64,000 bases of DNA from positions 20,074,001 through 20,138,000 of the forward strand of contig JARWIR010000008.1 in the NCBI GenBank assembly GCA_029959085.1, in the 5' to 3' direction. The notes below the pieces were generated by a model, which was not told where the DNA came from, searched no databases, and saw nothing but the letters and a program-made list of their open reading frames with translations. This DNA comes from Nemophila menziesii. Taxonomy: Eukaryota; Streptophyta; Magnoliopsida; Boraginales; Hydrophyllaceae. The position numbers were made by a program, and so were the translations under genes. Positions 5,492 through 53,774 of the stretch are shown one piece after another. The first letter of the stretch is position 1; each line of letters opens with the position of its first letter.

Positions 5492-6099
5492 TTAGCAATG
5501 GAAGTAGCAATTGCAAGAATACTTCCAGTGTCCCCCATGTCCCCAGAGTTGCTTTTGGCATAATCCATACTGGTAACCCAAGTACTTGCCGTGATAGCTA
5601 CATTTGTAGCTTTGTAGGCAATGCCCAACTCATTTGGGGCTTTGCCTCCAGCAGAATTTAGCATCCGCACCATTAATCTCTGCATGAAATTAAATGAAAA
5701 AGTTGGGTCTTAGTTATTTAGAAAACATTCCCAGATATTAAAATAAAAACAGAAAAAATTTATTCACATTAGCGCCATGTTAATTTATATACAATGAATG
5801 ATACAAGGAAACCATGACAAAATTTGAATTAAAGTTATAGTACAAAAGTAGTTGACCATAAAGTTCAAAACAAAATTTAATGAACCGCCACGTACTGCAA
5901 TAGATATTTATATTCTATAGGTAAATTTAAAGCAGGACCGGAGAGAAATATAGATCTGCAGATACATTGATATTATGCCTGTGAATATTGCATAGTTATT
6001 GATAAATAGGCCAACATGCTACGTACCAGATGCAGCAACAATGATGAAGATGTATAACAGAGCTAGGAATGATGCTTTGAAAATCATAGACTTTGCCAT
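5492..6099 (-). pseudogene. Defensin-like gene copy in U2, inactivated
   Basis: Exon 1 is 6099-6027 (signal peptide), intron 6026-5680 (347 bp), exon 2 5679-5492, joined in the same way as the intact copies. Compared with the U3 copy, exon 2 carries six substitutions, all changing the protein: K36R, W41 to stop (TGA at 5632-5630), N44H, C55G (loss of the fourth cysteine), H57Y and R69L. Exon 1 carries C7F. The stop truncates the peptide after the first cysteine, and the loss of C55 would break a disulphide even with readthrough. Splice sites, TATA box and start codon are preserved, so it may still be transcribed. Confidence 0.85.
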
Positions 6100-6149
6100 A
6101 TTGATGATTTTGGTATTGCTTGTGAGAAATCATATCTTCAAAGATGTTA

Positions 6150-6156
6150 TTTTATA
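6150..6156 (-). promoter_or_regulatory. TATA box of U2 defensin-like pseudogene
   Basis: Minus strand reads CCCCCCTATAAAATAAC, 51 bp before the ATG at 6099. The spacing is the same as in all other copies. The U2 box differs from them just downstream (AAC in place of GAC). Confidence 0.7.
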
Positions 6157-6355
6157 GGGGGGAACCAAAGTATTTAATGGAATAAACAATTAATGAAAAG
6201 CTTTTCTGATCTTTTCAATGATATGGATGTTTAACAATCCGTGGAGGACACCACCAGAAAAATAGTAGAATTGAACAAGTCTGAATATTGATTATGTGAT
6301 AATGTCAAATAAACTATACACTAGTTTACCAAATCATGTTTGGAAATGATTAAAT

Positions 6356-6365
6356 ACCGTACGGT
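6356..6365. promoter_or_regulatory. ACCGTACGGT palindrome (U2)
   Basis: Perfect 10-bp palindrome about 200 bp upstream of the TATA box. It contains the GTAC core bound by plant SBP/SPL-type factors; that role is inferred only from the core. Confidence 0.35.
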
Positions 6366-6396
6366 GTATTGTACCAGACTGGCACTAAGAGCAAGT

Positions 6397-6446
6397 AAAC
6401 ATATACTATTTTTTTTTTTTTTTTTGGACGTAAAACATATACTATT
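6397..6446 (-). mobile_element. Minute poly(A) retroposon insertion (U2)
   Basis: The word aaacatatactatt occurs at 6397-6410 and 6433-6446, flanking a T run plus ggacgt. The other units except U7 have a single copy of the word and no T run. On the minus strand this is a target-site duplication around ACGTCC and a poly(A) tail. It looks like a retroposition product in which almost all of the body was lost. Confidence 0.7.
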
Positions 6447-7141
6447 AAAAATCTTTTTTGTGATATTCAAATATTTATGCTATCTAAGAAAATTCAGGTA
6501 AAATGCATCTTTGAAAGTGAATTGTTATTCTTTGAACAAAAAAAAAAAAGAAGTGAATTGTTATTGTATTGACCAGTAGCTAGTCTAAAATTTTTAACCT
6601 CAATTGTTCATAAAAAAATATATTCAATTTGACATCTTGAATATATTTGTAAGCCACTTTCAACTGATCATCCTTCTGTGGTTTTTACATAATAGTACAA
6701 AAATTCCTAATATGTATGCCCACCGAAGAACCTGCTGTAAAATAAATCCTTTCGTCAGTTGCAGATCATATATTTTTTATTATTTCTTGAGTTCAATTTA
6801 TTTTTATCTTGTTTCTATTGATCTCTCAGCTTAGAACTTTCCGATTAGCGCAAAATATATGCAAAGGAAAATGTACAAGATATTTATCATGTATGGCTTC
6901 TATATTTTTTAGTATAATATTTTCATCTTTAGGCTAGCAAACTGCGAAAGATATGATAAAATTGCAAATGAATTGTAATTGTATGGGTTTTATAATAGAA
7001 CCAGTATACAAAATGCATAGCAAGGATGTACAATATTGATTCTATACTAATAGAACAAGAATATTAAAAATACTTAATGAAGTATTATCCTTCCAAATTA
7101 TTTACCAAAAGAGTTTTATCAAAAATAGATATTTTCCTTAA

Positions 7142-7750
7142 CATACCCCCTCAGGTCGGAGTATATATTAATGGCACTAGACTTGCTTAGTAATATCTCA
7201 AACAATAGCAAACTCTCTGGCTTAGTGAATATATAAGTGTCTTCTATATTTTCTTATGTAATGCGTGCATAACAATTCTTCTTGACCTTTGTAAGTGGTG
7301 ACGATCAATTTCCATATTCTTCTTACACTCATGAAATACAAGCATGACACAAATTATCGTCCATTGATTATCATAATAGAGTGTGTCTTCTTTCGGTGGC
7401 TCACCTTCCAATCATTTAAATGTTTTCCAAAACATTATCTTGCAGCATGTAGTTGACATTGACTGATATTCAGCCTCTGCGCCTGAACAAGATACAATTG
7501 TCAATTTCTTCTTTTTCCATGATATAGGTGCCTGCCCAATGAGATTACGATATCCGGTTATCAACGTTCTTGCAGCCTTAAATATAACTAACTGGGTATT
7601 GCTAAACTCCTTTAACTAAAATGTCACCAACGAAGGACGATGTATGCCTAGTCTAAGTGTATTTTTTTTTCATGTACTTTAGGATCTTTAGTAGTACCTC
7701 AAGGTGTGGTTTCGAAGTCTATGCTTGCCCCGACTCAACTCAAGGACAAC
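7142..7750 (-). pseudogene. Copia pol 3' relic (RT tail, RNase H, PPT), U2
   Basis: Read on the minus strand, about 7745-7680 gives a broken match to the end of Ty1/copia reverse transcriptase (LLKILKYMKK-like). About 7570-7280 gives RNase H: GYRNLIGQAPISWKKKK, then AEAEYQSMSTTCCKI, later YYDNQ and FHECKKNMEIDRH. These parallel the copia SWKSKKQ, SSAEAEYRSMA, YCDNQ and FHERTKHIEIDCH blocks. Stops and frameshifts interrupt it. Further on is GAGGGGG (polypurine tract, about 7145-7153), then TGTTAAGG at 7142-7135, which looks like the start of a 3' LTR running toward lower coordinates. The other end of that LTR could not be placed. Confidence 0.8.
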
Positions 7751-10700
7751 AAGTGAAATTTCAATCCTTTTTATAGTTAGGTTGATTAGCCTACATGTAA
7801 TTCGTCTTTATGACAATAAATCAATGAACATGTACTTTATTTGAATAATACAACATTTCATTCAACTAGAACCCATAAATTTTTGGCACCCAAGAATAAA
7901 GCATTGTCCCATATGACTATAACATATGTTTGTTGAAACAAAGTGATCATTATTATCTTGCAAGTTATATCCCTGAGAAATACTTGAGTTTATACCAATC
8001 CTATGATTTAAATTTTTTGGATAGATATATTTATCATAAACCAACAAAGAAATAAAGTTAAGTGGATAATATTGGAAAAACATATATTATACTTTAATTT
8101 TTTATGTAACCCGATATCCTTGATGGAATTATATAGTTTGAGAAACCAATGTTTTGAAACTTTGTTGAAAACCATGTATGGAATTGATTTAGTTTACGTA
8201 CTATAGTCTCACTCTTTTATCAGAATACAAGTGGAAATTTTATATAAACATCCTCATAAAACTCTCTGTGTGAAAATTTCTTACGGACGTCGAGTTGGTG
8301 CAAGTGTTGTTCTTGCAAATCTAGCACACTGGGAAGAAAACAAACTATCGTTAATTTAACAACATTGGACAATGTTTTTCTATAATCAACAATTTATATT
8401 CAGATATAACCTTTCTCAAACAACCATTATTTGTACCTCACTATTGTAAAATAAATTTTAAAATTTTTATTGTACACCCATTTGCAACTAGTGGGTTGTT
8501 TATAGGGTGGCATCGGTGCAACATATCAAATGTTGGTCGTCTTTATGATATTCAGTATTTTGGTTAATCCCAGCACAGTTGTGGATGTTTGAACACCTTT
8601 TGACGAATTTGGAATATCTTTATGATTGTGAGATTATATATGAGCATTTTATGGTGTGAATGAATGTAATTATAAAACAATTGGGTTACCTCAACTTGAC
8701 AGGTCCTTGTTTTTTCTTCTAAGAGGTACATGATTTGAATATCTCCTTAAATATGGTAATTCGATTCTAGCTTGCTTGGGGGTCACATGGATGCATATTC
8801 TCCGTTGGGCTAGTAGAGGTGTGCGCACACTTGCTCGCGACCCTCGTTATCAAGCAAAATGTTATTATATGTGAAAAAATAGGATAGTCGATGAGAGGTA
8901 TAACATAATCACACTTATTTGGAAAACTTGCAAATTGGAAGAAGTCTTTACTGGATGTGTTATATAGAAAGGAGGTCAAGGCATATTTCTTAGGTCTTGT
9001 GAGTTTCTATTGGTTCCTGCAATGGGGATAATACGGGATAAACAAAGGTAGTAGTTATTTTTATATATATTGGTCGAAATGGTCGAATCTCTTAATGGAG
9101 TACAGAATAATATAGGCATATTGTCGTTTAATTCGCAAGTTGAAAGTTTGAATGTAGTTATTATTGAAATTTCGCAAGGATTATAATATATATTTTCAAA
9201 GAACTAGTTGTGAAAGATCTTCGAAAAAAGAGATGAGTGCAGAAAAATTAAATTTTAGTAGAGGACATTATCTTGCGGATAAAAAACCAAGTTGAGAGTT
9301 AGATCGAATAATTTGTAAACTTTTTAACTAAAGGAATATCATATAAAGATGCGACTAGGTGAACAAGAGTAAATTTAGTGATATTTGTGTGTAAGATGAT
9401 ACAAAACAAAACCATCCAAAATATCGTAGACAAGAATAATTTGATTCTTTCTGAATAAATTTTTGATATGGAGTTTTTCTTTGAAAAAGAATTTTTGATA
9501 TGCGAATGAACAAATAAGTGGAAAATATTGCGTATCAATAAAACAATTTATAGAAATTAGCTTGAAAGAGTATGGTTCGACAACCTTAGAAAAACAATTG
9601 TGTTCGATCACATTCAACGATAGCGATTTGTTTTGGTGTGTTAATGTATTTGATTAGTCAAAATTACCCCTGGCCACAATATGACCATACCATCCTATTC
9701 GGACTAGTCCGGCTGTTCAGCCAACTATCAACTGGCCTTTCCACCATACATATCACTTGGAGTAAAAATTATTAAGTGACTTCTCAGCGGATTATCAGAT
9801 GATCTCTCGGTCATAAAACTTATTTGGACGAAAGATCCCTAATTATCTAGTCTAGCACTTCAGCCGCCTACCAGCTGTCTTCTCAGTTGTTAAGTCACTT
9901 GTATATTAAATTCTTAAGTGTCTAATCTGGTTCTTCAGCCGATAATCAACTTCCCTCTCGGTCATAAAACCCAATTGGACAATCAACGCATAGAGATTGT
10001 AGCTACACACCCATATATTTATATAACATCATTTTTTTTTCGTTGAAAATTAGCAAAAGCCTCTGACTCTTTAACAAAACAATTATTCCACATTTTATGA
10101 CAAGTCATACATAAAACTAATCTAATGCCTCTTTTTATGCATACATAATGTGCCCACAAATATCAGGGTCTACTAGACCAAGAGTCTAAGAATCTTTCCA
10201 TGCGCTCTTCTTTGAGAATGGATTTTTACATGTTGTTTACCAACCAAAACGTTTTTACATAGCCTCTGAGGAGCCTTGAGTTGTGGCACACTACTAACCA
10301 TATTATTTTACCTAAGAGTTTTCAAACCTTTAAGACTCTAGTAGCGTCCATACCGACAATGACAAGTTGGGTTTATTGTAATCAAACCTTTATTATCCAA
10401 TATTTGTTGATATTGTGTTGACTTGAGCATTTCATTTTTTAGACCTCGACTTGAGGCTTTATTGTGTTAACGCGTCGTGTAACCTTCTATATTTCGACAA
10501 ATGTGGTGTACAATGATTGGTGCGTCATCGTTTATTGATCGTTTCTGTTGTCAAATCACTTTCGTGAGACTATATGAAGGCCTTTTCTCTATATGATGGA
10601 TATTCAATGAGAGATGAAAGGATGAATGACTAACATGTTTGATTTGTAATTTATGTGTGCCATTTTATTGAGTCGAAGTTACCTTACAATCGATTCATTT

Positions 10701-11028
10701 GAACTGATCACTTATTGAATAAATCTGAAAGTGCTTATTAATTTTAATTTTGTTGGGGATTTTTGGTCAACCCCAACTATGAGAATATTTTTCTTTTATT
10801 GTATATTTTAAATTCACAAAGAAAAAAAATTAAAACATTTATATAGTATAATAGGTCTAAAATACAATTTGACAAAACAAATACGTAATACATATATTAT
10901 ATATATATTTCACTCATAAATGGAAGAATACAAACAAGGAGCAATAAAAAATAATGTAAAGGCTTGTAAGGCCATAAATGGTGACTTTTATTTCAACAGT
11001 GCACACAAGATCACGAGTTGTGATTTAT

Positions 11029-11637
11029 TTAGCAATGGAAGTAGCAATTGCAAGAATACTTCCAGTGTCCCCCATGTCCCCAGCGTTGCTTTTGGCATAA
11101 TCCATACTGGTAACCCAAGTGCTTGCAGTGATAGCTACATTTGTAGCTTTGTAGGCAATTCCCAACCCATTTGGGGCTTTGCTTCCAGCAGAATTTAGCA
11201 TCCGCACCATTAATCTCTGCATGAAATTAAAATGAAAACGTTGGGTCTTAGTTATTTAAAAAACATTCCGAGATATTAAAATAAAAACAGAAAAAATTTA
11301 TTCACATTAGCGCCATTTTAATTTATATACAATGAATGATACAAGGAAACCATGACAAAATTTGAATTAAAGTTATAGTACAAAAGTAGTTGACCATAGA
11401 GTTCAAAACAAAATTTAATGAACCGCCACGTACTGCAATAGATATTTATATTCTATAGGTAAATTTAAAGCATGGCCGGAGAGAAATATGGATCTACAGA
11501 TACATTGATATTATGCCTGTGAATATTGCATAGTTATTGATAAATAGGCCAACATGCTACGTACCAGATGCAGCAACAATGATGAAGATGTATAACAGAG
11601 CTAGGAATGATGCTTTGCAAATCATAGACTTTGCCAT
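11029..11637 (-). CDS. Defensin-like secreted cysteine-rich peptide (U3 copy)
   Basis: Exon 1 11637-11565 encodes MAKSM then a hydrophobic core (FLALLYIFIIVAAS), a clear signal peptide. The intron is 11564-11217, with donor CTG|GTACGT and acceptor TTTCATGCAG|AG. Exon 2 11216-11029 starts with the last two bases of a Glu codon. The 86-aa product has cysteines at 34, 45, 51, 55, 65, 80, 82 and 86, so C-x10-C-x5-C-x3-C-x9-C-x14-C-x-C-x3-C. CxxxC and CxC are the CS-alpha-beta defensin signature; the loop before CxC is long. The mature part is rich in Trp, His, Lys and Tyr. Members of the family act as secreted antimicrobials or as signals in pollination and self-recognition; which applies here is not shown. 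AATAAA at 10992-10987 could serve polyadenylation. Confidence 0.87.
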
Positions 11638-11687
11638 ATTGATGATTTTGGTATTGCTTGTGAGAAATCATATCTTCAAAGATGTCA

Positions 11688-11694
11688 TTTTATA
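11688..11694 (-). promoter_or_regulatory. TATA box of U3 defensin-like gene
   Basis: Minus strand CCCCCTATAAAATGAC, 51 bp before the ATG at 11637, which would give a leader of only about 20-25 nt. Confidence 0.75.
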
Positions 11695-11895
11695 GGGGGA
11701 GAACCAAAGTATTCATGAAATAAACAATTAATGAAAAGCTTTTCTGATCTTTTCAATGATATGGATGTTTAACAATCCGTGGAGGACACCACCAGAAAAA
11801 AATAGTAGAATTGAACAAGTCTGAATATTGATTATGTGATAATGTTAAATAAACTATACACTAGTTTACCAAATCATGTTTGGAAATGATTAAAT

Positions 11896-11905
11896 ACCGT
11901 ACGGT
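11896..11905. promoter_or_regulatory. ACCGTACGGT palindrome (U3)
   Basis: Same palindrome and same distance from the TATA box as in U2. Confidence 0.35.
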
Positions 11906-12645
11906 GTATTGTACCAGACTGGCACTAAGAGCAAGTAAACATATACTATTAAAAACCTTTTTTGTGATATTCAAATATTTATGCTATCTAAGAAAAATCA
12001 GGTAAAATGCATCTTTGAAAGTGAATTGTTATTCTTCGAACAAAAAAAAAAAAAGATGTGAATTGTTATTGTATAGACCAGTAGCTAGTCTAAAATTTTT
12101 AACCTCAATTGTTCATAAAAAAATATATTCAATTTGACATCTTGAATATGTTTGTAAGCCACTTTCAACTGATCATCCTTCTGTGGTTTTTACATAATAG
12201 TACAAAAATTCCTAATATGTATGCCCACCGAAGAACCTGCTGTAAAATAAATCCTTTCGTCAGTTGCAGATCATATATTTTTTATTATTTCTTGAGTTCA
12301 ATTTATTTTTATCTTGTTTCTATTGATCTCTCAGCTTAGAACTTTCCGATTAGCGCAAAATATATGCAAAGGAAAATGTACAAGATATTTATCAAGTATG
12401 GCTTCTATATTTTTTAGTATAATATTTTCATCTTTAGGCTAGCAAACTGCGAAAGATATGATAAAATTGCAAATGAATTGTAATTGTATGGGTTTTATAA
12501 TAGAACCAGTATACAAAATGCATAGCAAGGATGTACAATATTGATTCTATACTAATAGAACAAGAATATTAAAAATACTTAATGAAGTATTATCCTTCCA
12601 AATTATTTACCAAAAGGGTTTTATCAAAAATAGATATTTTCCTTA

Positions 12646-13250
12646 ACATACCCCCTCAGGTCGGAGTATATATTAATGGCACTAGACTTGCTTAGTAATA
12701 TCTCAAACAATAGCAAACTCTTTGGCTTAGTGAATATATAAGTGTCTTCTATATTTTCTTATGTAATGCGTGCATAATAATTCTTCTTGAACTTTCTATG
12801 TGGTGAAGATCAATTTCCATATTCTTCTTACACTCATGAAATACAAGCTTGACACAAATTATCGTCCATTGATTATCATAATAGAGTGTGTCTTCTTTCG
12901 GTGGCTCACCTTCCAATCATTTAAATGTTCTCCAAAACATTATCTTGCAGCATGTAGTTGCCATTGACTGATATTCAGCCTCTGCGCCTGAACAAGATAC
13001 AATTGTCAATTTCTTCTTTTTCCATGATATAGGTGCCTGCCCAATGAGATTACGATATCCGGTTATCAACGTTCTTGCAGCCTTAAATATAACTAACTGG
13101 GTATTGCTAAACTCCTTTAACTAAAATGTCACCATCGAAGGACGATGTATGCCTAGTCTAAGTGTATTTTTTTCATGTACTTTAGGATCTTTAGTAGTAC
13201 CTCAAGGTGTGGTTTCGACGTCTATGCTTGCCCTGACTCAACTCAAGGAT
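12646..13250 (-). pseudogene. Copia pol 3' relic, U3
   Basis: Same decayed RNase H frame as in U2, here reading AEAEYQSMATTCCKI. It has the same in-frame stop after KTFK in the minus-strand reading, so the damage is inherited and not new. The polypurine tract and TGTTAAGG lie at the low-coordinate end. Confidence 0.75.
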
Positions 13251-16200
13251 AACAAGTGAAATTTCAATCCTTTTTATAGTTAGGTTGATTAGCCTACATG
13301 TAATTCGTCTTTATGACAATAATACAATGAACATGTATTTTATTTGAATAATACAACATTTTATTCAACTAGAACCCATAAATTTTTGGCACCCAATAAT
13401 AAAGCATTGTCCCATATGACTATAACATATGTTTGTTGAAACAAAGTGATCATTTTTATCTTGCAAGTTATATCCCTAAGAAATACTTGAGTTTACCCCA
13501 ATCCTATGATTTAAATTTTTTGGATAGATATATTTATAATAAACCAACAAAGAAATAAAGTTAAGTGGATAATATTGGAAAAACATATATTATACTTTAA
13601 TTTTTTATGTAACCCGATATCCTTGATGTTATTAGATAGTTTGAGAAACCAATGTTTTGAAACTTTGCTGGAAACCATGTATGGAATTGATTTAGTTTAC
13701 GTACTATAGTCTCACTCTTTTATCAGAATACAAGTGGAAATTTTATGGAAACACCCTCATAAAGCTCTTTGTGTAAAAATTTCTTATGGACATCGAGTTG
13801 GTGCAAGTGTTGTTCTTGCAAATCTAGCACACTGGGGAGAAAACAAACTATCGTTAATTTAACAACATTGGACAATGTTTTTCTATAATCAACAATTTAT
13901 ATTCAGATATAACCCTTCTCAAACAACCATTATTTGTACCTCACTATTGAAAAATAAATTTTAAAATTTTTATTGTACACCCATTTGCAACTAGTGGGTT
14001 GTTTGTAGGGTGGCATCGGTGCAAAATATCAAATGTTGGTCGTCTTTATGAGATTCAGTTTTTTGGTTAATCTCAACAAAGTTGTGGATGTTTGAACACC
14101 TTGTGAAGAATTTTGAATATCTTTATGATTGAGAGATTATATATGAGCATTTTATGGTGTGAATGAATGTAATTATAAAACAATTGGGTTACCTCAACTT
14201 GACAGGTCCTTGTTTTTTCTTCTAAGAGGTACATGATTTGAATATCTCCTTAAATATGGTAACCTGATTCTGGCTTGCTTGGGGGTCACATGGATGCATC
14301 TTCTCTGTTGGGCAAGTAGAGGTGTGCGCACACTTGCTCGCGACCCTCGTTATCAAGCAAAATGTTATTATATGTGAAAAAATAGGATAGTTGATGAGAG
14401 GTATAACATAATCACACTTATTTGGAAAACTTGCAAATTGGAAGAAGTCTTTATTGGATGTGTTATATAGAAAGGAGGTAAAGGCATATTTCTTAGGTCT
14501 TGTGAGTTTCTATTGGTTCCTGCAATGGGGGATAATACGGGATACACAAAGGTAGTAGTTATTTTTATATATAGTGGTCGAAATGGTCGAATCTCTTAAT
14601 GGAGTATTGAATAATATAGGCATATTGTCGTTTAATTCGCAAGTTGAAAGTTTGAATGTAGTTATTATTGAAATTTTTAAAGGATTATAATATATATTTA
14701 CAAAGAACTGGTTGTGAAAGATCTTCGAAAAAAGAGATGAGTGCAGAAAAATTAAATTTTAGTAGAGGACATTATCTTGCGGATAAAAAACCAAGTTGAG
14801 AGTTAGATCGAATAATTTGTAACCTTTTTAACTACAGGAATATCATATAAAGATGCGACTAGGTGAACAAGAGTAAATTTAGTGATATTTGTGTGTAAGA
14901 TGATACAAAACAAAACCATCCAAAATATCGTAGACAAGAATAATTTGATTCTTTCTGAATAAATTTTCGATATGGAGTTTTTCTTTGAAAAAGAATTTGG
15001 ATATGCGAATCAACAAATAAGTGGAAAATATTGCGTATCAATAAAACAATTTATAGATATGAGCTTGAAAGAGTATGGTTCGACAACCTTAGAGAAAATA
15101 ATAGTGTTCGATCACATTCAACGATAGCGATTTGTTTTGGTGTGTTAATGTATTTGATTAGTCAAAATTACCCCTGGCCACAATATGACCATACCATCCT
15201 ATTCGGACTAGTCCGGCTCTTCAGCCAACTATCAACTGGCCTTTCCACCATACATATCACTTGGAGTAAAAATTATTAAGTGACTTCTCAGCGGATTATA
15301 AGATGATCTCTCGGTCAAAAAACTTATTTGGATGAAAGATCCCTAATTATCTAGACTAGCACTTCAGCCGCCTACCAGCTGTCTTCTCAGTCGTTAAGTC
15401 ACTTGTATATTAAATTCTTAAGTGTCTAATCTGGTTCTTCAGCCGATAATCAACTTCCCTCTCGGTCATAAAACTCATTTGGACAATCAACGCATAGAGA
15501 TTTTAGCTACACACCCATATATTTATATAACATGATTTTTATTTCGTTGAAAATTAGCAAAAGCCTCTGACTCTTTAAAAAAACAATTATTCCACATTTT
15601 ATATAAAGTCATCCATAAAACTAATCTCATGCCTCTTTTTATGCATACATAATGTGCCCACAAATATCAGGGTCTACTAGACCAAGAGTCTAAGAATCTT
15701 TCCATGCGCTCTTCTTTGAGAATGGATTTTTACATGTTGCTTACCAACCAAAACGTTTTTACATAGCCTCTGAGGAGCCTTGAGTTGTGGCACACTACTA
15801 ACCATATTATTTTACCTAAGAGTTTTCAAACCTTTAAGACTCTAGTAGCGTCCATACCGACAATGACAAGTTGGGTTTATTGTAATCAAACCTTTATTAT
15901 CCAATATTTGTTGATATTGTGTTGACTTGAGCATTTCATTTTTTTAGAACTCGACTTGAGGCTTTATTGTGTTAACGCGTCGTGTAACCTTCTATATTTC
16001 GACAAATGTGGTGTACAATGATTGGTGCGTCATCGTTTATTGATCGTTTCTGGGGTCAAATCACTTTCGTGAGACTATATGAAGGCCTTTTCTCTATATG
16101 ATGGATATTCAATGAGAGATGAAAGGATGAATGACTAACATGTTTGATTTGTAATTTATGTGTGCCATTTTATTGAGTCGAAGTTACCTTACAATCGATT

Positions 16201-16517
16201 CATTTGAACTGATCACTTATTGAATAAATCTGAAAGTGCTTATTAATTTTAATTTTGTTGGGGATTTTTGGTCAACCCCAACTATGAAAATATTTCTTTT
16301 AGTGTATATTTTAAATTCACAAAGAAAAGAAATTAAAACATTTATATAGTATAATAGGTCTAAAATACAATTTGACAAATACATATATTATATATATTTC
16401 ACTCATAAATGGAAGAATACAAACAAGGAGCAATAAAAAATAATGTAAAGGCTTGTAAGGCCATAAATGGTGACTTTTATTTCAACAGTGCACACAAGAT
16501 CACGAGTTGTGATTTAT

Positions 16518-17126
16518 TTAGCAATGGAAGTAGCAATTGCAAGAATACTTCCAGTGTCCCCCATGTCCCCAGCGTTGCTTTTGGCATAATCCATACTGGT
16601 AACCCAAGTGCTTGCAGTGATAGCTACATTTGTAGCTTAGTAGGCAATTCCCAACCCATTTGGGGCTTTGCTTCCAGCAGAATTTAGCATCCGCACCATT
16701 AATCTCTGCATGAAATTAAAATGAAAACGTTGGGTCTTAGTTATTTAAAAAACATTCCGAGATATTAAAATAAAAACAGAAAAAATTTATTCACATTAGC
16801 GCCATTTTAATTTATATACAATGAATGATACAAGGAAACCATGACAAAATTTGAATTAAAGTTATAGTACAAAAGTAGTTGACCATAGAGTTCAAAACAA
16901 AATTTAGTGAACCGCCACGTACTGCAATAGATATTTATATTCTATAGGTAAATTTAAAGCATGGCCGGAGAGAAATATGGATCTACAGATACATTGATAT
17001 TATGCCTGTGAATATTGCATAGTTACTGATAAATAGGCCAACATGCTACGTACCAGATGCAGCAACAATGATGAAGATGTATAACAGAGCTAGGAATGAT
17101 GCTTTGCAAATCATAGACTTTGCCAT
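16518..17126 (-). CDS. Defensin-like secreted cysteine-rich peptide (U4 copy)
   Basis: Exon 1 17126-17054, intron 17053-16706 (348 bp), exon 2 16705-16518, stop TAA 16520-16518. The signal-peptide exon is identical to U3. There is one replacement, Q47L (CAA to CTA, from gcttagtagg on the forward strand), between the second and third cysteines. All eight cysteines are kept. The same base change puts a stop into the overlapping +1 frame of exon 2, which otherwise stays open for 65 codons in the other units. This copy therefore argues that the +1 frame is not the coding one. Confidence 0.85.
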
Positions 17127-17176
17127 ATTGATGATTTTGGTATTGCTTGTGAGAAATCATATCTTCAAAGATGTCA

Positions 17177-17183
17177 TTTTATA
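17177..17183 (-). promoter_or_regulatory. TATA box of U4 defensin-like gene
   Basis: Minus strand CCCCTTATAAAATGAC, 51 bp before the ATG. It differs from the other copies by one base just before TATAAA. Confidence 0.75.
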
Positions 17184-17384: not shown

Positions 17385-17394
17385 ACCGTACGGT
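17385..17394. promoter_or_regulatory. ACCGTACGGT palindrome (U4)
   Basis: Conserved palindrome upstream of the U4 gene. Confidence 0.35.
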
Positions 17395-22617: not shown

Positions 22618-22667
22618 ATTGATGATTTTGGTATTGCTTGTGAGAAATCATATCTTCAAAGATGTCA

Positions 22668-42000: not shown

Positions 42001-42276
42001 ATTAATTTTAATTTTGTTGGGGATTTTTGGTCAACCCCAACTATGAAAATATTTCTTTTATTGTATATTTTAAATTCACAAAGAAAACAAATTAAAACAT
42101 TTATATAGTATAATAGGTCTAAAATACAATTTGACAAATACATATATTATATATATTTCACTCATAAATGGAAGAATACAAACAAGGAGCAATAAAAAAT
42201 AATGTAAAGGCTTGTAAGGCCATAAATGGTGATTTTTATTTCAACAGTGCACACAAGATCACGAGTTGTGATTTAT

Positions 42277-42885
42277 TTAGCAATGGAAGTAGCAATTGCA
42301 AGAATACTTCCAGTGTCCCCCATGTCCCCAGCGTTGCTTTTGGCATAATCCATACTGGTAACCCAAGTGCTTGCAGTGATAGCTACATTTGTAGCTTTGT
42401 AGGCAATTCCCAACCCATTTGGGGCTTTGCTTCCAGCAGAATTTAGCATCCGCACCATTAATCTCTGCATGAAATTAAAATGAAAAAGTTGGGTCTTAGT
42501 TATTTAAAAAACATTCCGAGATATTAAAATAAAAACAGAAAAAATTTATTCACATTAGCGCCATTTTAATTTATATACAATGAATGATACAAGGAAACCA
42601 TGACAAAATTTGAATTAAAGTTATAGTACAAAAGTAGTTGACCATAGAGTTCAAAACAAAATTTAATGAACCGCCATGTACTGCAATAGATATTTATATT
42701 CTATAGGTAAATTTAAAGCATGACCGGAGAGAAATATGGATCTACAGATACATTGATATTATGCCTGTGAATATTGCATAGTTATTGATAAATAGGCCAA
42801 CATGCTACGTACCAGATGCAGCAACAATGATGAAGATGTATAACAGAGCTAGGAATGATGCTTTGCAAATCATAGACTTTGCCAT
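42277..42885 (-). CDS. Defensin-like secreted cysteine-rich peptide (U6 copy)
   Basis: Exon 1 42885-42813, intron 42812-42465 (348 bp), exon 2 42464-42277. The predicted 86-aa protein is identical to that of U3 and U7 even though the surrounding noncoding sequence has collected differences. The first copy to the right of the CACTA insertion, it lies about 4 kb from that element. Confidence 0.87.
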
Positions 42886-42935
42886 ATTGATGATTTTGGT
42901 ATTGCTTGTGAGAAATCATATCTTCAAAGATGTCA

Positions 42936-42942
42936 TTTTATA
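42936..42942 (-). promoter_or_regulatory. TATA box of U6 defensin-like gene
   Basis: CCCCCTATAAAATGAC on the minus strand, 51 bp before the ATG at 42885. Confidence 0.75.
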
Positions 42943-43143
42943 GGGGGAGAACCAAAGTATTCATGAAATAAACAATTAATGAAAAGCTTTTCTGATCTTT
43001 TCAATGATATGGATGTTTAACAATCCGTGGAGGACACCACCAGAAAAAAATAGTAGAATTGAACAAGTCTGAATATTGATTATGTGATAATGTTAAATAA
43101 ACTATACACTAGTTTACCAAATCATGTTTGGAAATGATTAAAT

Positions 43144-43153
43144 ACCGTACGGT
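43144..43153. promoter_or_regulatory. ACCGTACGGT palindrome (U6)
   Basis: Conserved palindrome upstream of the U6 gene. Confidence 0.35.
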
Positions 43154-43892
43154 GTATTGTACCAGACTGGCACTAAGAGCAAGTAAACATATACTATTAA
43201 AAACCTTTTTTGTGATATTCAAATATTTATGCTATCTAAGAAAATTCAGGTAAAATGCATCTTTGAAAGTGAATTGTTATTCTTTGAACAAAAAAAAAAA
43301 AAGAAGTGAATTGTTATTGTATAGACCAGTAGCTAGTCTAAAATTTTTAACCTCAATTGTTCATAAAAAAATATATTTAATTTGACATCTTGAATATGTT
43401 TGTAAGCCACTTTCAACTGATCATCCTTCTGTGGTTTTTACATAATAGTACAAAAATTCCTAATATGTATGCCCACCGAAGAACCTGCTGTAAATAAATC
43501 CTTTCGTCAGTTGCAGATCATATATTTTTTATTATTTCTTGAGTTCAATTTATTTTTATCTTGTTTCTATTGATCTCTCAGCTTAGAACTTTCCGATTAG
43601 CGCAAAATATATGCAAAGGAAAATGTACAAGATATTTATCATGTATGGCTTCTATATTTTTTAGTATAATATTTTCATCTTTAGGCTAGCAAACTGCGAA
43701 AGATATGATAAAATTGCAAATGAATTGTAATTGTATGGGGTTTATAATAGAACCAGTATACAAAATGCATAGCAAGGATGTACAATATTGATTCTATACT
43801 AATAGAACAAGAATATTAAAAATACTTAATGAAGTATTATCCTTCCAAATTATTTACCAAAAGGGTTTTATCAAAAATAGATATTTTCCTTA

Positions 43893-44500
43893 ACATACCC
43901 CCTCAGGTCGGAGTATAAATTAATGGCACTAGACTTGCTTAGTAATATCTCAAACAATAGCAAACTCTCTGGCTTAGTGAATATATAAGTGTCTTCTATA
44001 TTTTCTTATGTAATGCGTGCATAACAATTCTTCTTGACCTTTCTAAGTGGTGACGATCAATTTCCATATTCTTCTTACACTCATGAAATACAAGCATGAC
44101 ACAAATTATCGTCCATTGATTATCATAATAGAGTGTGTCTTCTTTCGGTGGCTCACCTTCCAATCATTTAAATGTTTTCCAAAACATTATCTTGCAGCAT
44201 GTAGTTGCCATTGACTGATATTCAGCCTCTGCGCCTGAACAAGATACAATTGTCAATTTCTTCTTTTTCCATGATATAGGTGCCTGCCCAATGAGATTAC
44301 GATATCCGGTTATCAACGTTCTTGCAGCCTTAAATATAACTAACTGGGTATTGCTAAACTCCTTTAACTAAAATGTCACCATCGAAGGACGATGTATGCC
44401 TAGTCTAAGTGTATTTTTTTTCATGTACTTTAGGATCTTTAGTAGTACCTCAAGGTGTGGTTTCGACGTCTATGCTTGCCCTGACTCAACTCAAGGACAA
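43893..44500 (-). pseudogene. Copia pol 3' relic, U6
   Basis: Same RNase H remnant as in the other units, with AEAEYQSMATTCC readable on the minus strand. Confidence 0.75.
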
Positions 44501-47500
44501 CAAGTGAAATTTCAATCCTTTTTATAGTTAGGTTGATTAGCCTACATGTAATTCGTCTTTATGACAATAAATCAATGAACATGTACTTTATTTGAATAAT
44601 ACAACATTTTATTCAACTAGAACCCATAAATTTTTGGCACCCAAGAATAAAGCATTGTCCCATATGACTATAACATATGTTTGTTGAAACAAAGTGATCA
44701 TTATTATCTTGCAAGTTATATCCCTGAGAAATACTTGAGTTTACCCCAATCCTATGATTTAAATTTTTTGGATAGATATATTTATCATAAACAACCAAAG
44801 AAATAAAGTTAAGTGGATAATATTGGAAAAACATATATTATAATTTAATTTTTTATGTAACCCGATATCCTTGATGGAATTATATAGTTTGAGAAACCAA
44901 TGTTTTGAAACTTTGTTGAAAACCATGTATGGAATTGATTTAGTTTACGTACTATAGTCTCACTCTTTTATCAGAATACAAGTGGAAATTTTATGTAAAC
45001 ATCCTCATAAAACTCTCTGTGTAAAAATTTCTTATGGACGTCGAGTTGGTGCAAGTGTTGTTCTTGCAAATCTAGCACACTGGGGAGAAAACAAACTATC
45101 GTTAATTTAACAACATTGGAAAATGTTTTTCTATAATCAACAATTTATATTCAGATATAACCCTTCTCAAACAACCATTATTTGTACCTCACTATTGTAA
45201 AATAAATTTTAAAATTTTTATTGTACACCCATTTGCAACTAGTGGGTTGTTTGTAGGGTGGCATCAGTGCAAAATATCAAATGTTGGTCGTCTTTATGAG
45301 ATTCAGTTTTTTGGTTAATCCCAACACAGTTGTGGATGTTTGAACACCTTGTAAAGAATTTGGAATATCTTTATGATTGTGAGATTATATATGAGCATTT
45401 TATGGTGTGAATGAATGTAATTATAAAACAATTGGGTTACCTCTACTTGACAGGTCCTTGTTTTTTCTTCTAAGAGGTACATGATTTGAATATCTCCTTA
45501 AATATGGTAACCTGATTCTGGCTTGCTTGGGGGTCACATGGATGCATCTTCTCCGTTGGGCTAGTAGTGGTGTGCGCACACTTGCTCGCGACCCTCGTTA
45601 TCAAGCAAAATGTTATTATATGTGAAAAAATAGGATAGTTGATGAGAGGTATAACATAATCACACTTATTTGGAAAACTTGCAAATTGGAAGAAGTCTTT
45701 ATTGGATGTGTTATATAGAAAGGAGGTAAAGGCATATTTCTTAGGTCTTGTGAGTTTCTATTGGTTCCTGCAATGGGGGATAATACGGGATACACAAAGG
45801 TAGTAGTTATTTTTATATATAGTGGTCGAAATGGTCGAATCTCTTAATGGAGTACTGAATAATATAGGCATATTGTCGTTTAATTCGCAAGTTGAAAGTT
45901 TGAATGTAGTTATTATCGAAATTTCGCAAGGATTATAATATATATTTTCAAAGAACTGGTTGTGAAAGATCTTCGAAAAAAGAGATGAGTGCAGAAAAAT
46001 TAAATTTTAGTAGAGGACATTATCTTGCGGATAAAAAACCAAGTTGAGAGTTAGGTCGAATAGTTTGTAACCTTTTTAACTACAGGAATATCATATAAAG
46101 ATGCGACTAGGTGAACAAGAGTAAATTTAGTGATATTTGTGTGTAAGATGATACAAAACAAAACCATCCAAAATATCGTAGACAAGAATAATTTGATTCT
46201 TTCTGAATAAATTTTCGATATGGAGTTTTTCTGTGAAAAAGAATTTTGGATATGCGAATCAACAAATAAGTGGAAAATATTGCGTATCAATAAAACAATT
46301 TACAGAAATGAGCTTGAAAGAGTATGGTTCGACAACCTTAGAGAAAATAATAGTGTTCGATCACATTTAACGATAGCAATTTGTTTTGGTGTGTTAATGT
46401 ATTTGATTAGTCAAAATTACCCCAGGCCACAATATAACCATACCATCCTATTCGGACTAGTCCGGCTCTTCAGCCAACTATCAACTGGCCTTTCCACCAT
46501 ACATATCACTTGGAGTAAAAATTATTAAGTGACTTCTCAGCGGATTATAAGATGTTCTCTCAGTCATAAAACTTATTTGGATGAAAGATCCCTAATTATC
46601 TAGTCTAGCACTTCAGCCGCCTACCAGCTGTCTTCTCAGTCGTTAAGTCACTTGTATATTAAATTCTTAAGTGTCTAATCTGGTTCTTCAGCCGATAATC
46701 AACTTCCCTCTCGGTCATAAAACCCATTTGGACAATCAACGCATAGAGATTTTAGCTACACACCCATATATTTATATAACATGATTTTTATTTCGTTGAA
46801 AATTAGCAAATGCCTCTGACTCTTTAAAAAAACAATTATTCCACATTTTATATAAAGTCATCCATAAAACTAATCTCATGCCTCTTTTTATGCATACATA
46901 ATGTGCCCACAAATATCAAGGTCTACTAGACCAAGAGTCTAAGAATCTTTCCATGCGCTCTTCTTTGATAATGGATTTTTACATGTTGTTTACCAACCAA
47001 AACGTTTTTACATAGCCTCTGAGGAGCCTTGAGTTGTGGCACACTACTAACCATATTATTTTACCTAAGAGTTTTCAAACCTTTAAGACTCTAGTAGCGT
47101 CCATACCGACAATGACAAGTTGGGTTTATTGTAATCAAACCTTTATTATCCAATATTTGTTGATATTATGTTGACTTGAGCATTTCATTTTTTTAGACCT
47201 CGACTTGAGGCTTTATTGTGTTAACGCGTCGTGTAACCTTCTATATTTCGACAAATGTGGTGTACAATGATTGGTGCGTCATCGTTTCTGGGGTCAAATC
47301 ACTTTCGTGAGACTATATTAAGGCATTTTCTCTATATGATGGATATTCAATGAGAGATGAAAGGATGAATGACTAACATGTTTGATTTGTAATTTATGTG
47401 TGCCATTTTATTGAGTCGAAGTTACCTTACAATCGATCCATTTGAACTGATCACTTATTGAATAAATCTGAAAGTGCTTATTAATTTTAATTTTGTTGGG

Positions 47501-47755
47501 GATTTTTGGTCAACCCCAACTATGAAAATATTTCTTTTATTGTATATTTTAAATTCACAAAGAAAACAAATTAAAACATTTATATAGTATAATAGGTCTA
47601 AAATACAATTTGACAAATACATATATTATATATATTTCACTCATAAATGGAAGAATACAAACAAGGAGCAATAAAAAATAATGTAAAGGCTTGTAAGGCC
47701 ATAAATGGTGACTTTTATTTCAACAGTGCACACAAGATCACGAGTTGTGATTTAT

Positions 47756-48365
47756 TTAGCAATGGAAGTAGCAATTGCAAGAATACTTCCAGTGTCCCCC
47801 ATGTCCCCAGCGTTGCTTTTGGCATAATCCATACTGGTAACCCAAGTGCTTGCAGTGATAGCTACATTTGTAGCTTTGTAGGCAATTCCCAACCCATTTG
47901 GGGCTTTGCTTCCAGCAGAATTTAGCATCCGCACCATTAATCTCTGCATGAAATTAAAATGAAAAAGTTGGGTCTTAGTTATTTAAAAAACATTCCGGAA
48001 TATTAAAAATAAAAACAGAAAAAATTTATTCACATTAGCGCCATTTTAATTTATATACAATGAATGATACAAGGAAACCATGACAAAATTTGAATTAAAG
48101 TTGTAGTACAAAAGTAGTTGACCATAGAGTTCAAAACAAAATTTAGTGAACCGCCACGTACTGCAATAGATATTTATATTCTATAGGTAAATTTAAAGCA
48201 TGGCCGGAGAGAAATATAGATCTACAGATACATTGATATTATGCCTGTGAATATTGCATAGTTATTGATAAATAGGCCAACATGCTACGTACCAGATGCA
48301 GCAACAATGATGAAGATGTATAACAGAGCAAGGAATGATGCTTTGCAAATCATAGACTTTGCCAT
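47756..48365 (-). CDS. Defensin-like secreted cysteine-rich peptide (U7 copy)
   Basis: Exon 1 48365-48293, intron 48292-47944 (349 bp), exon 2 47943-47756. The protein is identical to U3 and U6. Exon 1 has the only silent change seen among the copies: Leu-12 CTA to CTT (gagcaagg on the forward strand). Splice sites are unchanged. The palindrome upstream is followed by the minute poly(A) retroposon found otherwise only in U2. Confidence 0.87.
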
Positions 48366-48415
48366 ATTGATGATTTTGGTATTGCTTGTGAGAAATCATA
48401 TCTTCAAAGATGTCA

Positions 48416-48422
48416 TTTTATA
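48416..48422 (-). promoter_or_regulatory. TATA box of U7 defensin-like gene
   Basis: CCCCCTATAAAATGAC on the minus strand, 51 bp before the ATG at 48365. Confidence 0.75.
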
Positions 48423-48623
48423 GGGGGAGAACCAAAGTATTCATGAAATAAACAATTAATGAAAAGCTTTTCTGATTTTTTTCAATGATATGGATGTTTA
48501 ACAATCCGTGGAGGACACCACCAGAAAAAGTAGTAGAATTGAACAAGTATGAATATTGGTTATGTGATAATGTTATATAAACTATACACTAGTTTACCAA
48601 ATCATGTTTGGAAATGATTAAAT

Positions 48624-48633
48624 ACCGTACGGT
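48624..48633. promoter_or_regulatory. ACCGTACGGT palindrome (U7)
   Basis: Conserved palindrome upstream of the U7 gene. Confidence 0.35.
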
Positions 48634-48664
48634 GTATTGTACCAGACTGGCACTAAGAGCAAGT

Positions 48665-48714
48665 AAACATATACTATTTTTTTTTTTTTTTTTGGACGTA
48701 AAACATATACTATT
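48665..48714 (-). mobile_element. Minute poly(A) retroposon insertion (U7)
   Basis: aaacatatactatt at 48665-48678 and 48701-48714 flank a T run and ggacgt, at the same site and with the same content as in U2 (6397-6446). Confidence 0.7.
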
Positions 48715-49404
48715 AAAAACCTTTTTTGTGATATTCAAATATTTATGCTATCTAAGAAAATTCAGGTAAAATGCATCTTTGAAAGTGAATTGTTATTCTT
48801 TGAACAAAAAAAAAAAAGAAAGTGAATTGTTATTGTATAGACCAGTAGCTAGTCTAAAATTTTTAACCTCAATTTTTCATAAGAATATATATTCAATTTG
48901 ACATCTTGAATATGTTTGTAAGCCACTTTCAACTGATCATCCTTCTGTGGTTTTTACATAATAGTACAAAAATTCCTAATATGTATGCCCACCGAAGAAC
49001 CTGCTGTAAAATAAATCCTTTCGTCAGTTGCAGATCATATATTTTTTATTATTTCTTGAGTTCAATTTATTTTTATCTTGTTTCTATTGATCTCTCAGCT
49101 TAGAACTTTCCGATTAGCGCAAAATATATGCAAAGGAAAATGTACAAGATATTTATCATGTATGGCTTCTATATTTTTTAGTATAATATTTTCATCTTTA
49201 GGCTAGCAAACTGTGAAAGATATGATAAAATTGCAAATGAATTGTAATTGTATGGGTTTTATAATAGAACCAGTATACAAAATGCATAGCAAGGATGTAC
49301 TATATTGATTCTATTCTAATAGAACAAGAATATTAAAAAAATGAAGTATTATCCTTCCAAATTATTTACCATAAGGGTTTTATCAAAAATAGATATTTTC
49401 CTTA

Positions 49405-50010
49405 ACATACCCCCTCAGGTCGGAGTATATATTAATGGCACTAGACTTGCTTAGTAATATCTCAAACAATAGAAAACTCTATGGCTTAGTGAATATACAA
49501 GTGTCTTCTATATTTTCTTATGTAATACGTGCATAACAATTCTTCTTGAACTTTCTAAGTGGTGACGATCAATTTCCATATTCTTCTTACACTCATTAAA
49601 TACAAGCTTGACACAAATTATCGTCCATTGATTATCATAATAGAGTGTGTCTTCTTTCGGTGGCTCACCTTCCAATCATTTAAATGTTTTCCAAAACATT
49701 ATCTTGCAACATGTAGTTGCCATTGACTGATATTCAGCCTCTGCGCCTGAACAAGATACAATTGTCTATTTCTTCTTTTTCCATGATATAGGTGCCTGCC
49801 GAATGAGATTACGATATCCGGTTATCAACCTTCTTGCAGCCTTAAATATAACTAGCTGGGTATTGCTAAACTCCTTTAACTACAATGTCACCATCGAAGG
49901 AAATGTATGCCTAGTCTAGGTGTATTTTTTTCATGTACTTTAGGATCTTTAGTAGTACCTCAAGGTGTGGTTTCGACGTCTATGCTTGCCCTGACTCAAC
50001 TCAAGGACAA
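49405..50010 (-). pseudogene. Copia pol 3' relic, U7
   Basis: RNase H remnant. A 3-4 bp loss at gaaggaaatg (near 49898) is private to this unit, and tgcctgccgaatg is shared with U8. Confidence 0.75.
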
Positions 50011-53000
50011 CAAGTGAAATTTCAATCCTTTTTATAGTTAGGTTGATTAGCCTACATATAATTTGTCTTTATGACAATAAATCAATGAACATGTATTTTA
50101 TTTGAATAATACAACCTTTTATTCAACTAGAACCCATAAATTTTTGGCACCCAAGAATAATGCATTGTCTCATATGACTATAAAATATGTTTGTTGAAAC
50201 AAAGTGATCATTTTTATCTTGCAAGTTATATTCCTAAGAAATACTTGAGTTTACCCCAATCCTATGATTTAAATTTTTTGGATAGATATATTTATCATAA
50301 ACCAACAAAGAAATTAAGTTAAGTGGATAATATTGGAAAAACATATATTATACTATAATTTTTTATGTAACCCGATATCCTTGATGGAATTAGATAGTTT
50401 GAGAAACCAATGTTTTGAAACTTTGTTGAAAACCATGTATGGAATTGATTTAGTTTACGTACTATAGGCTCACTCTTTTATCAGAATACAAGTGGAAATT
50501 TTATGTAAACATCCTCATAAAGCTCTCTGTGTAAAAATTTCTTATGGACATCGAGTTGGTGCAAGTGTTGTTCTTGCAAATCTAGCACACTGGGGAGAAA
50601 ACAAACTATCGTTAATTTAACAACATTGGAAAATGTTTTTCTATAATCAAAAATTTATATTCAGATATAACCCTTCTCAAACAACCATTATTTGTACCTC
50701 ACTATTGTAAAATAAATTTTAAAATTTTTATTGTACACCCATTCGCAACTAGTGGGTTGTTTGTAGGGTGGCATCGGTGCAAAATATTAAATGTTGGTCG
50801 TCTTTATGAGATTCAGTTTTTTGGTTAATCCCAACACAGTTGTGGATGTTTGAACACCTTGTGAAGAATTTGGAATATCTTTATGATTGTGAGGTTATAT
50901 ATGAGCATTTTATGGTGTGAATGAATGTAAATATAAAACAATTGGGTTACCTCAACTTGACAGGTCCTTGTTTTTTCTTCTAAGAGGTACATGATTTGAA
51001 TATCTCCCTAAATATGGTAACCTGATTCTGGCTTGCTTGGGGGTCACATGGATGCATATTCTCCGTTGGGCTAGTAGAGGTGTGCGCACACTTGCTCGCG
51101 ACCCTCGTTATCAAACAAAATGTTATTATATGTGAAAAAATAGGATAGTTGATGAGAGGTATAACATAATCACACTTATTTGGAAAACTTGCAAATTGGA
51201 AGAAGTCTATATTGGAATTGTTATATAGAAAGGAGGTCAAGGAATATTTCTTAGGTCTTGTGAGTTTCTATTGGTTCCTGCAATGGGGGATAATGCGGGA
51301 TAAACAAAGGTAGTAGTTATTTTTATATATAGTGGTCGAAATAATCGAATCTCTTAATGGAGTACTGGATAAAATAGGCATATTGTCGTTTAATTCACAA
51401 GTTGAAAGTTTGAGTGTAGTGATTCTTGAAATTTCGCAAGGATTATAATATATATAGTCAACAGAAATGGTTGTGAAAATCTTCGAAAAAAGAGATGAGT
51501 GCAGAAAAATTAAATTTTAGTAGAGAAATTATTTTTAAAGAGGACATTATCTTGCGGATAAAAAACCAAGTTGAGAGTTAGATCGAATAATTTGTAACCT
51601 TTTTAACTACAGGAATATCATATAAAGATGCGACTAGGTGAGCAAGAGTAAATTTAGTGATATTTGTGTGTAAGATGATACAAAACAAAACCATCCAAAA
51701 TATCGTAGACAAGAATAATTTGATTCTTTCTGAATAAATTTTCGATATGGAGTATTTCTTTGAAAAAGAATTTTGGATATGCGAATCAACATATTAGTAG
51801 AAAATGTTGCCTATCAATAAGACAATTTATAGATATGAGCTTGAAATAGTATGGTTCGACAACCTTAGAGGAAACAATAGTGTTCGATCACATTCAACGA
51901 CAGCGATTTGTTTTGGTGTGTTAATGTATTTGATTAGTCAAAATTACCCCCTGGCCACAATATGACCATACCATCCTATTCGGACTAGTCTGGCTCTTTA
52001 GCCGACTATCAACTGGCCTTTCCACCATACATATGACTTGTAGTAAAAATTATTAAGTGACTTCTCAGCAGATTATCAGGATATCTCTCGGTCATAAAAC
52101 TTATTTGGACGAAAGATCCCTAATTATCTAGTCTAGCACTTCACCCACCTACCAGATGTCTTCTCAATCGTTAAGTCACTTGTATATTAAATTCTTAAGT
52201 GTCAAAACTGGTTCTTTAGCCGATAATCAACGTCCCTCTCGGTCATAAAACCCATTTGGACAATCAACGCATAGAGATTTTAGCTACACACCCATATATT
52301 TATATAACATGATTTTAATTTCGTTGAAAATTAGCAAAAGCCTCTAACTCTTTAACAAAAAAATTATTCCACATTTTGTGACAAGTCATCCATAAAACTA
52401 ATCTAATGCCTCTTTTTATGCATACGTAATGTGCCCACAAATATCAGGGTCTACTAGACCAAGAGTCTAAGAATCTTTCCATGCGCTCTTCTTTGATAAT
52501 GGATTTTTACATGTTGTTTACCAACCAAAACATTTTTACATAGCCTCTGAGGAGCCTTGAGTTGTGGCACACTACTAACCATATTGTTTTACCTAAGAGT
52601 TTTCAAACCTTTAAGACTCTAGTAGCGTCCATACCGACAATGACAAGTTGGGTTTATTTTAATCAAATCTTTATTATCCAATATTTGTTGATATTGTGTT
52701 AACTTGAGTATTTCATTTTTTAGACCTCGACTTGAGGCTTTATTGTGTTAACACGTCGTGTAACCTTCTATATTTCGACAAATGTGTTATACAATGATTG
52801 GTGCGTCATCGTTTATTGATCGTTTCTGGGGTCAAATCACTTTGGTGAGACTATATGAAGGCCTTTTCTCTATATGATGGATTTTCAATGAGAGATGAAA
52901 GGATGAATGACTAACATGTTTGATTTGTATTTTATGTGTGCCATTTTATCGAGTCGAACTTACAATCGATTCATTTGAACTGATCACTTATTGAATAAAT

Positions 53001-53302
53001 CTGAAAGTGCTTATTAATTTTAATTTTGTTGGGGATTTTTGGTCAACCCCAACTATGAGAATATTTTTCTTTTATTGTATATTTTAAATTCAGAAAGAAA
53101 ACAAATTAAAACATTTATATAGTATAATAGGTCTAAAATACAATTTGACAAAACAATTACGTAATACATATATTATATATATTTCACTCATAAATGGAAG
53201 AATACAAACAAGGAGCAATAAAAAATAATGTAAAGGCTTGTAAGGCCATAAATGGTGACTGTTATTTCAACAGTGCACACAAGATCACGAGTTGTGATTT
53301 AT

Positions 53303-53774
53303 TTAGCAATGGAAGTAGCAATTGCAAAAATACTTCCAGTGTCCCCCATGTCCCCAGCGTTGCTTTTGGCATAATCCATACTGGTAACCCAAGTGCTTGC
53401 AGTGATAGCTACATTTGTAGCTTTGTAGGCAATTCCCAACCCATTTGGGGCTTTGCTTCCAGCAGAATTTAGCATCCGCACCATTAATCTCTGCATGAAA
53501 TTAAAATGAAAAAGTTGGGTCTTAGTTATTTAAAAAACATTCCGAGATATTAAAATAAAAACAGAAAAAATTTATTCACATTAGCGCCATTTTAATTTAT
53601 ATACAATGAATGATACAAGGAAATATAGATCTACAGATACATTGATATTATGCCTGTGAATGTTGCATAGTTATTGATAAATAGGCCAACATGCTACGTA
53701 CCAGATGCAGCAACAATGATGAAGATGTATAACAGAGCTAGGAATGATGCTTTGCAAATCATAGACTTTGCCAT
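53303..53774 (-). CDS. Defensin-like secreted cysteine-rich peptide (U8 copy, short intron)
   Basis: Exon 1 53774-53702, intron only 211 bp (53701-53491), exon 2 53490-53303. The intron lost 137 bp between two gaaa words (aaggaaa|tatagatc), a microhomology deletion. Donor, acceptor and the T-rich stretch before the acceptor remain. One replacement, S79F, lies directly before the CxC motif (KYFCNC in place of KYSCNC). All eight cysteines are kept. Exon 1 is identical to U3. Confidence 0.85.

Follow-up and report, generated by a model that had tools for sequence, protein, structure and literature searches.

The window analysed here, 64,000 nt of Nemophila menziesii DNA (positions 20,074,001-20,138,000 of contig C340, in a genome of 1.517 Gb and 361 contigs), carries a tandem series of short two-exon genes for a plant defensin-like (DEFL) peptide. 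Six intact genes and one pseudogene lie within the window, and they belong to an array of 62 copies, in two lineages, whose intact members share a 14-residue loop between the fifth and sixth cysteines (C5-C6).

A two-exon gene on the minus strand of seven tandem units

Repeat comparison showed that a unit of ~5.49 kb is a true tandem repeat, arranged head to tail in the window (units U2 to U8, Table 1). The minus strand of each of these units holds a gene with an exon 1 of 73 nt (in 7 of 7 copies), a phase-1 GT...AG intron and an exon 2 of 188 nt. Exon 1 contains 24 codons of a hydrophobic, signal-type sequence and ends in ...GCATCTG; exon 2 begins with AGATTAATGG..., and in six of the seven copies the spliced frame gives a precursor of 86 aa with eight cysteines. 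The spliced products of U3, U6 and U7 are identical (MAKSMICKASFLALLYIFIIVAAS-EINGADAKFCWKQSPKWVGNCLQSYKCSYHCKHLGYQYGLCQKQRWGHGGHWKYSCNCYFHC), and those of U4, U5 and U8 differ by one or two substitutions. The U2 copy has a TGA at codon 41 and a change of Cys55 to Gly, and none of its 7 changes relative to U3 is synonymous; U2 is a pseudogene. The intron measures 347-349 nt in U2 to U7 and 211 nt in U8, which makes the latter 137 nt shorter than the common 348; introns of 211 nt are also present in array copies L037, L062 and L063, which suggests a sub-lineage. All seven copies carry a TATAAAA box at an equal distance (57 nt) from the start codon. An out-of-frame ATG, reading MISHKQYQNHQYG..., was also seen 34 nt before the start codon in all seven (at ~11671 in U3).

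A preliminary description of the window had proposed seven eight-cysteine genes in U2 to U8, amplified as whole units at a 5.5-kb period. Seven copies are indeed present where it placed them, with the 24-codon signal-type exon, the GT-AG intron and an exon 2 ending on the last cysteine, and the periodicity was borne out; the lesions of U2 leave six intact genes, and the number seven reflects the window. It had also held that callers of open reading frames miss the gene, with longer frames covering exon 2. The 92-codon antisense frame exists (16409-16687, plus strand), and the 65-codon frame across exon 2 (16521-16715, minus strand), which had been taken for a competing +1 frame, proved to be the peptide's own. 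Escape from annotation is an expected property of DEFL genes, for which the available part of PMC3924332 also gives a two-exon class structure.

Sixty-two copies of the gene in two lineages

The whole genome was searched in six frames, exon by exon, which gave 97 matches, with 150 of 153 candidates scored; all array exon-2 matches outside the window were examined, and so were all the others apart from a C79 fragment at 10,091,564 with two stops. A script produced spliced models for 68 of the 71 loci, of which 7 lie in the window and 64 outside it; those without one were L040 and L041 on contig C1 and L048 on C121, whose exon 1, too dissimilar for the script's threshold, was identified manually. 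The array comprises 62 exon-2-bearing copies, of which C340 carries 43 within 323 kb (19,903,343-20,226,447) and C126, a contig of 144 kb, carries 19. Two groups, ~76% identical to each other, could be distinguished: group 1, the window's lineage, with 25 copies (17 on C340 and 8 on C126), and group 2 with 37 (26 on C340 and 11 on C126). Along C340, group 2 comes first and group 1 follows. In the tree, the C126 copies of group 1 interleave with those of C340, and 10 of the 11 C126 copies of group 2 form their own clade. C126 may represent the alternative haplotype or may continue the array, and the copies per haploid genome may number fewer than 62.

The two-exon model (signal-type exon, one intron, mature-peptide exon) was obtained for all 62 array copies and for 6 copies on C79, and every array copy other than U2 is intact with the same cysteine spacing. 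Five of the C79 copies stand in tandem orientation, and the precursors of the two that were aligned are 58% identical to the window protein. The outlier L047 (G000:C79:10060237-10062073) shows 56%; its first cysteine is preceded by an additional lysine-rich stretch, and its C5-C6 loop has 17 residues. L048 is a canonical-looking gene with 42% precursor identity. The preliminary description had named, as what would refute it, orthologous loci in relatives that lack the conserved cysteines and splice sites; among paralogues of the same genome these are kept in 61 of 62 array copies and in the 6 C79 copies, and not in the C79 fragment or the two C1 copies, which have internal stops and in which no first exon was found. 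Around two C79 genes (L075, G000:C79:10132001-10142000) longer repeats were noticed, 87.6% identical over ~1.6 kb and spaced ~7.1 kb apart; segments bearing this gene family have therefore been duplicated at a second locus as well.

Cysteine framework and predicted fold of the peptide

The peptide has the spacing C-X10-C-X5-C-X3-C-X9-C-X14-C-X1-C-X3-C, and its last cysteine is the C-terminus. In the parts available of two sources (PMC7432377, PMC7925638), the gamma-core of plant defensins is published as GXCX3-9C. In 61 of 61 intact array copies the GXC is kept as GLC and X14 precedes the next cysteine, as the preliminary description had remarked of the window copies. Because this loop exceeds the canonical 3-9 residues, we class the array peptide among defensin-like variants and not with the canonical defensins. 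Within the family in this genome the C5-C6 loop has 9 residues in the C121 paralogue, 12 in the C79 cluster, 14 in the array and 17 in L047; in seven database relatives, counted by eye, it has 4-8. The hairpin formed by the loop, in the region with which activity is commonly associated, abounds in Trp, His, Gly, Lys and Arg. Taken to start at KFC, the mature peptide has a charge of ~+8; its group-1 form lacks both Asp and Glu, and a single Glu after precursor residue 31 was found in 3 of the 61 intact copies, all three of group 2.

Structure prediction assigned a cysteine-stabilised alpha-beta (CS-alpha-beta) fold to the array peptide. The best Pfam match of full window precursors was AtDEF-like PF25052 (5.7e-5 and 2.9e-5; 23.8 and 24.7 bits, with a cut-off of 25). 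With Gamma-thionin PF00304 (gathering score 25.1 bits), the window proteins (20.3 and 22.1) and the C79 peptide (24.4) scored below the threshold, and the sister-lineage exon-2 peptide (33.6) and the C121 paralogue (46.8) above it; L047 was not listed. With SLR1-BP / PCP-A PF07333 (cut-off 22.7 bits), the window proteins scored 12.6 and 12.3 and the C79 peptide 20.9, and the C121 paralogue, at 23.2, narrowly passed the cut-off. A single-sequence protein search gave no candidate with three 5-residue words in common with the query. By profile search, 7 of 159 candidates were recognised as relatives, and annotated plant defensins were reached at 4.9e-18, the nearest peptides being from Lycium, Solanum, Castilleja, Deinandra, Medicago and Stylosanthes. 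Like the PF00304 defensins of Lycium and Solanum called 'defensin-like protein 1' (P0122, P0123), the array protein has a signal-type N-terminus, a WSG(P)C segment and eight cysteines in the same order, mostly at equal spacing, with a CxC...C end; unlike the seven database relatives it has 14 residues, not 4-8, in the C5-C6 loop, and its identity to the Lycium and Solanum proteins is 34-35% over the best alignment. The Art v 1-type defensins of pollen in the daisy family (PDB 2kpy) are a further known system close to it; in Art v 1 itself the defensin domain is followed by a proline-rich region, according to PMC5771466, whereas the array peptide stops at the last cysteine. From homology, predicted fold and gene structure, the gene is a plant DEFL gene of the CS-alpha-beta kind, its defensin-like identity agreeing with the preliminary description.

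Selection and amplification of the two lineages

We estimated ratios of nonsynonymous to synonymous substitution (dN/dS) by NG86 on representative genes. Group 1 compared with three group-2 genes gave 0.34, 0.40 and 0.30 (synonymous divergence, dS, 0.35-0.47); these three compared with one another gave 0.08, 0.33 and 0.23, and comparisons with C79 copies gave 0.34-0.61. Fisher tests on rounded counts returned p values of 0.0024 for one group-1/group-2 pair, 2e-5 for one group-2 pair, and 0.037 and 0.0015 for group 1 against two C79 forms. Judged by these ratios, the lineage representatives diverged under purifying selection.

Within the groups, 24 of 44 coding variants in the 37 group-2 genes alter the protein, a depletion relative to the 78% expected (p 0.0007), and 7 of 9 do so in the 24 intact group-1 genes, with no depletion (p 1.0); both p values are rough, since variants that copies share through descent or gene conversion do not count as independent. 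Variable sites amounted to 9/261 in coding sequence versus 28/211 in the intron in group 1, and to 39/261 versus 110/364 in group 2. Gene stretches of 1.8 kb had median identities of 98.3% (10 C340 copies) and 98.3% (8 C126 copies) in group 1, and of 97.7% (18 of 26 C340 copies) and 99.7% (11 C126 copies) in group 2. One exon-2 peptide is common to 25 of the 37 group-2 genes and one to 9 of the 24 intact group-1 genes. A neutral simulation of the broken copies to be expected, which predicted nearly all to be broken, was discarded because at least one copy, L038, was only partly alignable upstream and inflated the tree.

Each group is a clade in the tree and has its own unit length (5.5 kb in group 1, mostly 4.9-6.0 kb in group 2), and a group-1 unit can be aligned with a 10-kb stretch of group 2 (L074) only at exon 2 and at exon 1 with the promoter; amplification or homogenisation of each group therefore followed the split of the two genes. 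Because copies are near-identical within a lineage, dosage is favoured over fast diversification, and the overall pattern looks like dosage with homogenisation. The preliminary description had left the choice between dosage and a fast-evolving recognition role. The latter is not supported, given dN/dS values of 0.30-0.40 between representatives of the lineages and the predominance of one exon-2 peptide in group 2; dosage would fit better.

The repeated unit and the transposon inside it

The tandem series is interrupted within U5 by a CACTA element of 14.8 kb, which carries TNP2, DUF4218 and DUF4216 and is inserted between genes. Pfam matches for this element and a long interspersed nuclear element (LINE) nested in it were Transposase_21 (1e-76) and RVT_1 (5.4e-40). 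Short tandem repeats were noted in the CACTA region near 27650-27965, 34299-34970 and 35875-36414, and the best named matches of its transposase included Asteraceae, Cannabis and Ulmus ranking high as well.

The gene is missing from U1 and U9; in its place stands a 95.8%-identical 'type B' segment, which begins at unit position 314 in both and has different right ends. Type B was seen on C126 too (L080, L081), with an exon-1 match at 74494-74568 there and no exon 2. Among 50 open frames of >=45 codons (33 from U4 and 17 from type B), no second gene of the unit was recognised, although a search of this kind would overlook any spliced gene whose exons are short. Four Pfam families were matched at E<=0.01, with one member each: RVT_2 (1e-5), Gamma-thionin (0.00036), presumably exon 2, Rpc31 (0.0055) and termicin (0.0077). 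Follow-up of 10 of the 50 frames located the Rpc31 match to an acidic frame at 58661-58954 and did not locate RVT_2. Rfam gave 0 matches at the gathering score within the window.

Table 1. Features of the window (positions are those of the 64,000-nt stretch)
Feature	Position	Strand	Details
Tandem units U2-U8	5004..58167	.	~5.5 kb each, from repeat comparison
Unit starts, U2-U8	5004, 10538, 16043, 21534, 41802, 47281, 52819		arbitrary phase
U2 copy, pseudogene	5492..6099	-	exon 1 6027-6099, intron 5680-6026, exon-2 homology 5492-5679
U3 gene	11029..11637	-	86 aa; exon 1 11565-11637, intron 11217-11564, exon 2 11029-11216
U4 gene	16518..17126	-	Q47L; exon 1 17054-17126, intron 16706-17053, exon 2 16518-16705
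U5 gene	22009..22617	-	P39A, S52R; exon 1 22545-22617, intron 22197-22544, exon 2 22009-22196
U6 gene	42277..42885	-	protein as U3 and U7; exon 1 42813-42885, intron 42465-42812, exon 2 42277-42464
U7 gene	47756..48365	-	exon 1 48293-48365, intron 47944-48292, exon 2 47756-47943
U8 gene	53303..53774	-	S79F; exon 1 53702-53774, intron 53491-53701 (211 nt), exon 2 53303-53490
TATAAAA box, U3	11688..11694	-	begins 57 nt upstream of start codon
TATAAAA boxes, other copies	6150-6156, 17177-17183, 22668-22674, 42936-42942, 48416-48422, 53825-53831	-	
CACTA (TNP2) transposon	24033..38835	.	CACTA...TAGTG ends, 3-bp TAT target duplication
LINE nested in CACTA	28974-31964 and 31961-33157	-	open reading frames
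'Type B' segment	590-2696 (U1) and 58474-60632, to 61831 (U9)		replaces the gene

Function of the array peptide

We consider it probable that the array produces, in high dose, a secreted, cationic and likely antimicrobial defensin-like peptide. The hydrophobic 24-residue first exon would direct the 86-aa precursor to the secretory pathway; cleavage just before the Lys of KFC would release from exon 2 a peptide of ~55 residues, predicted to adopt a beta-alpha-beta-beta fold held by the eight cysteines. At one locus, whole units of each of the two gene lineages (5.5 kb and ~4.9-6.0 kb) were amplified or homogenised; the array, its copies staying near-identical, would most likely serve to increase the dose of one secreted peptide. 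The likeliest role would be antimicrobial (antifungal) protection, in which the cationic, Trp-rich hairpin may bind microbial membranes.

That the reading frame is no gene at all, and arises by chance in repeated sequence, is scarcely conceivable: in its favour stand the shortness of the exons and the longer antisense frame, but frame, splice positions and all eight cysteines are kept in paralogues at 56-76% identity, which refute the idea, and the profile search reached annotated defensins. Silent satellite-like amplification, with the gene as a passenger without present function, appears quite improbable to us. It would account for the amplification of whole units, for the CACTA element and its nested LINE inside one of them, for the U2 pseudogene and the loss of the gene from some units, and for the nonsynonymous variants not being depleted in group 1. 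Against this, all but one of the 62 copies are intact, variation is lower at coding sites than in introns for each group, purifying selection is seen in group 2, and exons with the adjoining promoter are all that stays alignable between a group-1 unit and those of L074.

The peptide could instead be a reproductive or other cell-to-cell signal, like LURE1 or the pollen-coat cysteine-rich peptides, its many copies being expressed in one cell type, which we regard as rather unlikely. Tandem DEFL clusters can be pollen-tube attractants, as LURE1 is in Arabidopsis, and AtLURE1 resembles our array as a species-specific tandem cluster in which, in the part available of the source, positive selection was not detected (PMC3525529); the weak SLR1-BP pollen-coat scores point the same way. 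AtLURE1 differs in its named copies, AtLURE1.1 and AtLURE1.2-1.5 in that text (PMC3525529), as against 62 array copies, and the Nemophila array repeats whole units of ~5 kb. Moreover, defence fits equally well or better with the high positive charge and near absence of acidic residues, and with nearest annotated relatives called 'defensin-like protein 1'.

We tentatively envisage a history in which the gamma-core hairpin of a defensin lineage grew from an ordinary 9 residues (C121) to 12, 14 and 17, an order taken from the series of lengths rather than from a dated tree, and became enriched in Trp, His and Gly; two diverged members may then have been amplified separately at a single locus, reaching dozens of copies that hardly diversified, as a dosage-driven peptide factory based on a novel, larger gamma-core. 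Tandem clustering of DEFL genes is reported (part available of PMC5731061), and the array belongs to this known kind of plant gene cluster; what is new, as far as we have seen, is its loop length and its scale, and word searches of the open-access literature listed no paper whose title describes such an array. Arrays of this kind provide a test case for gene finders, which overlook short two-exon peptides, and the lengthened gamma-core offers a natural series of 9, 12, 14 and 17 residues in one genome for testing the effect of the hairpin on activity. Dozens of near-identical intact copies would suggest that selection acts on dose, unlike the diversifying role which the preliminary description, and often the field, suspects for DEFL clusters.

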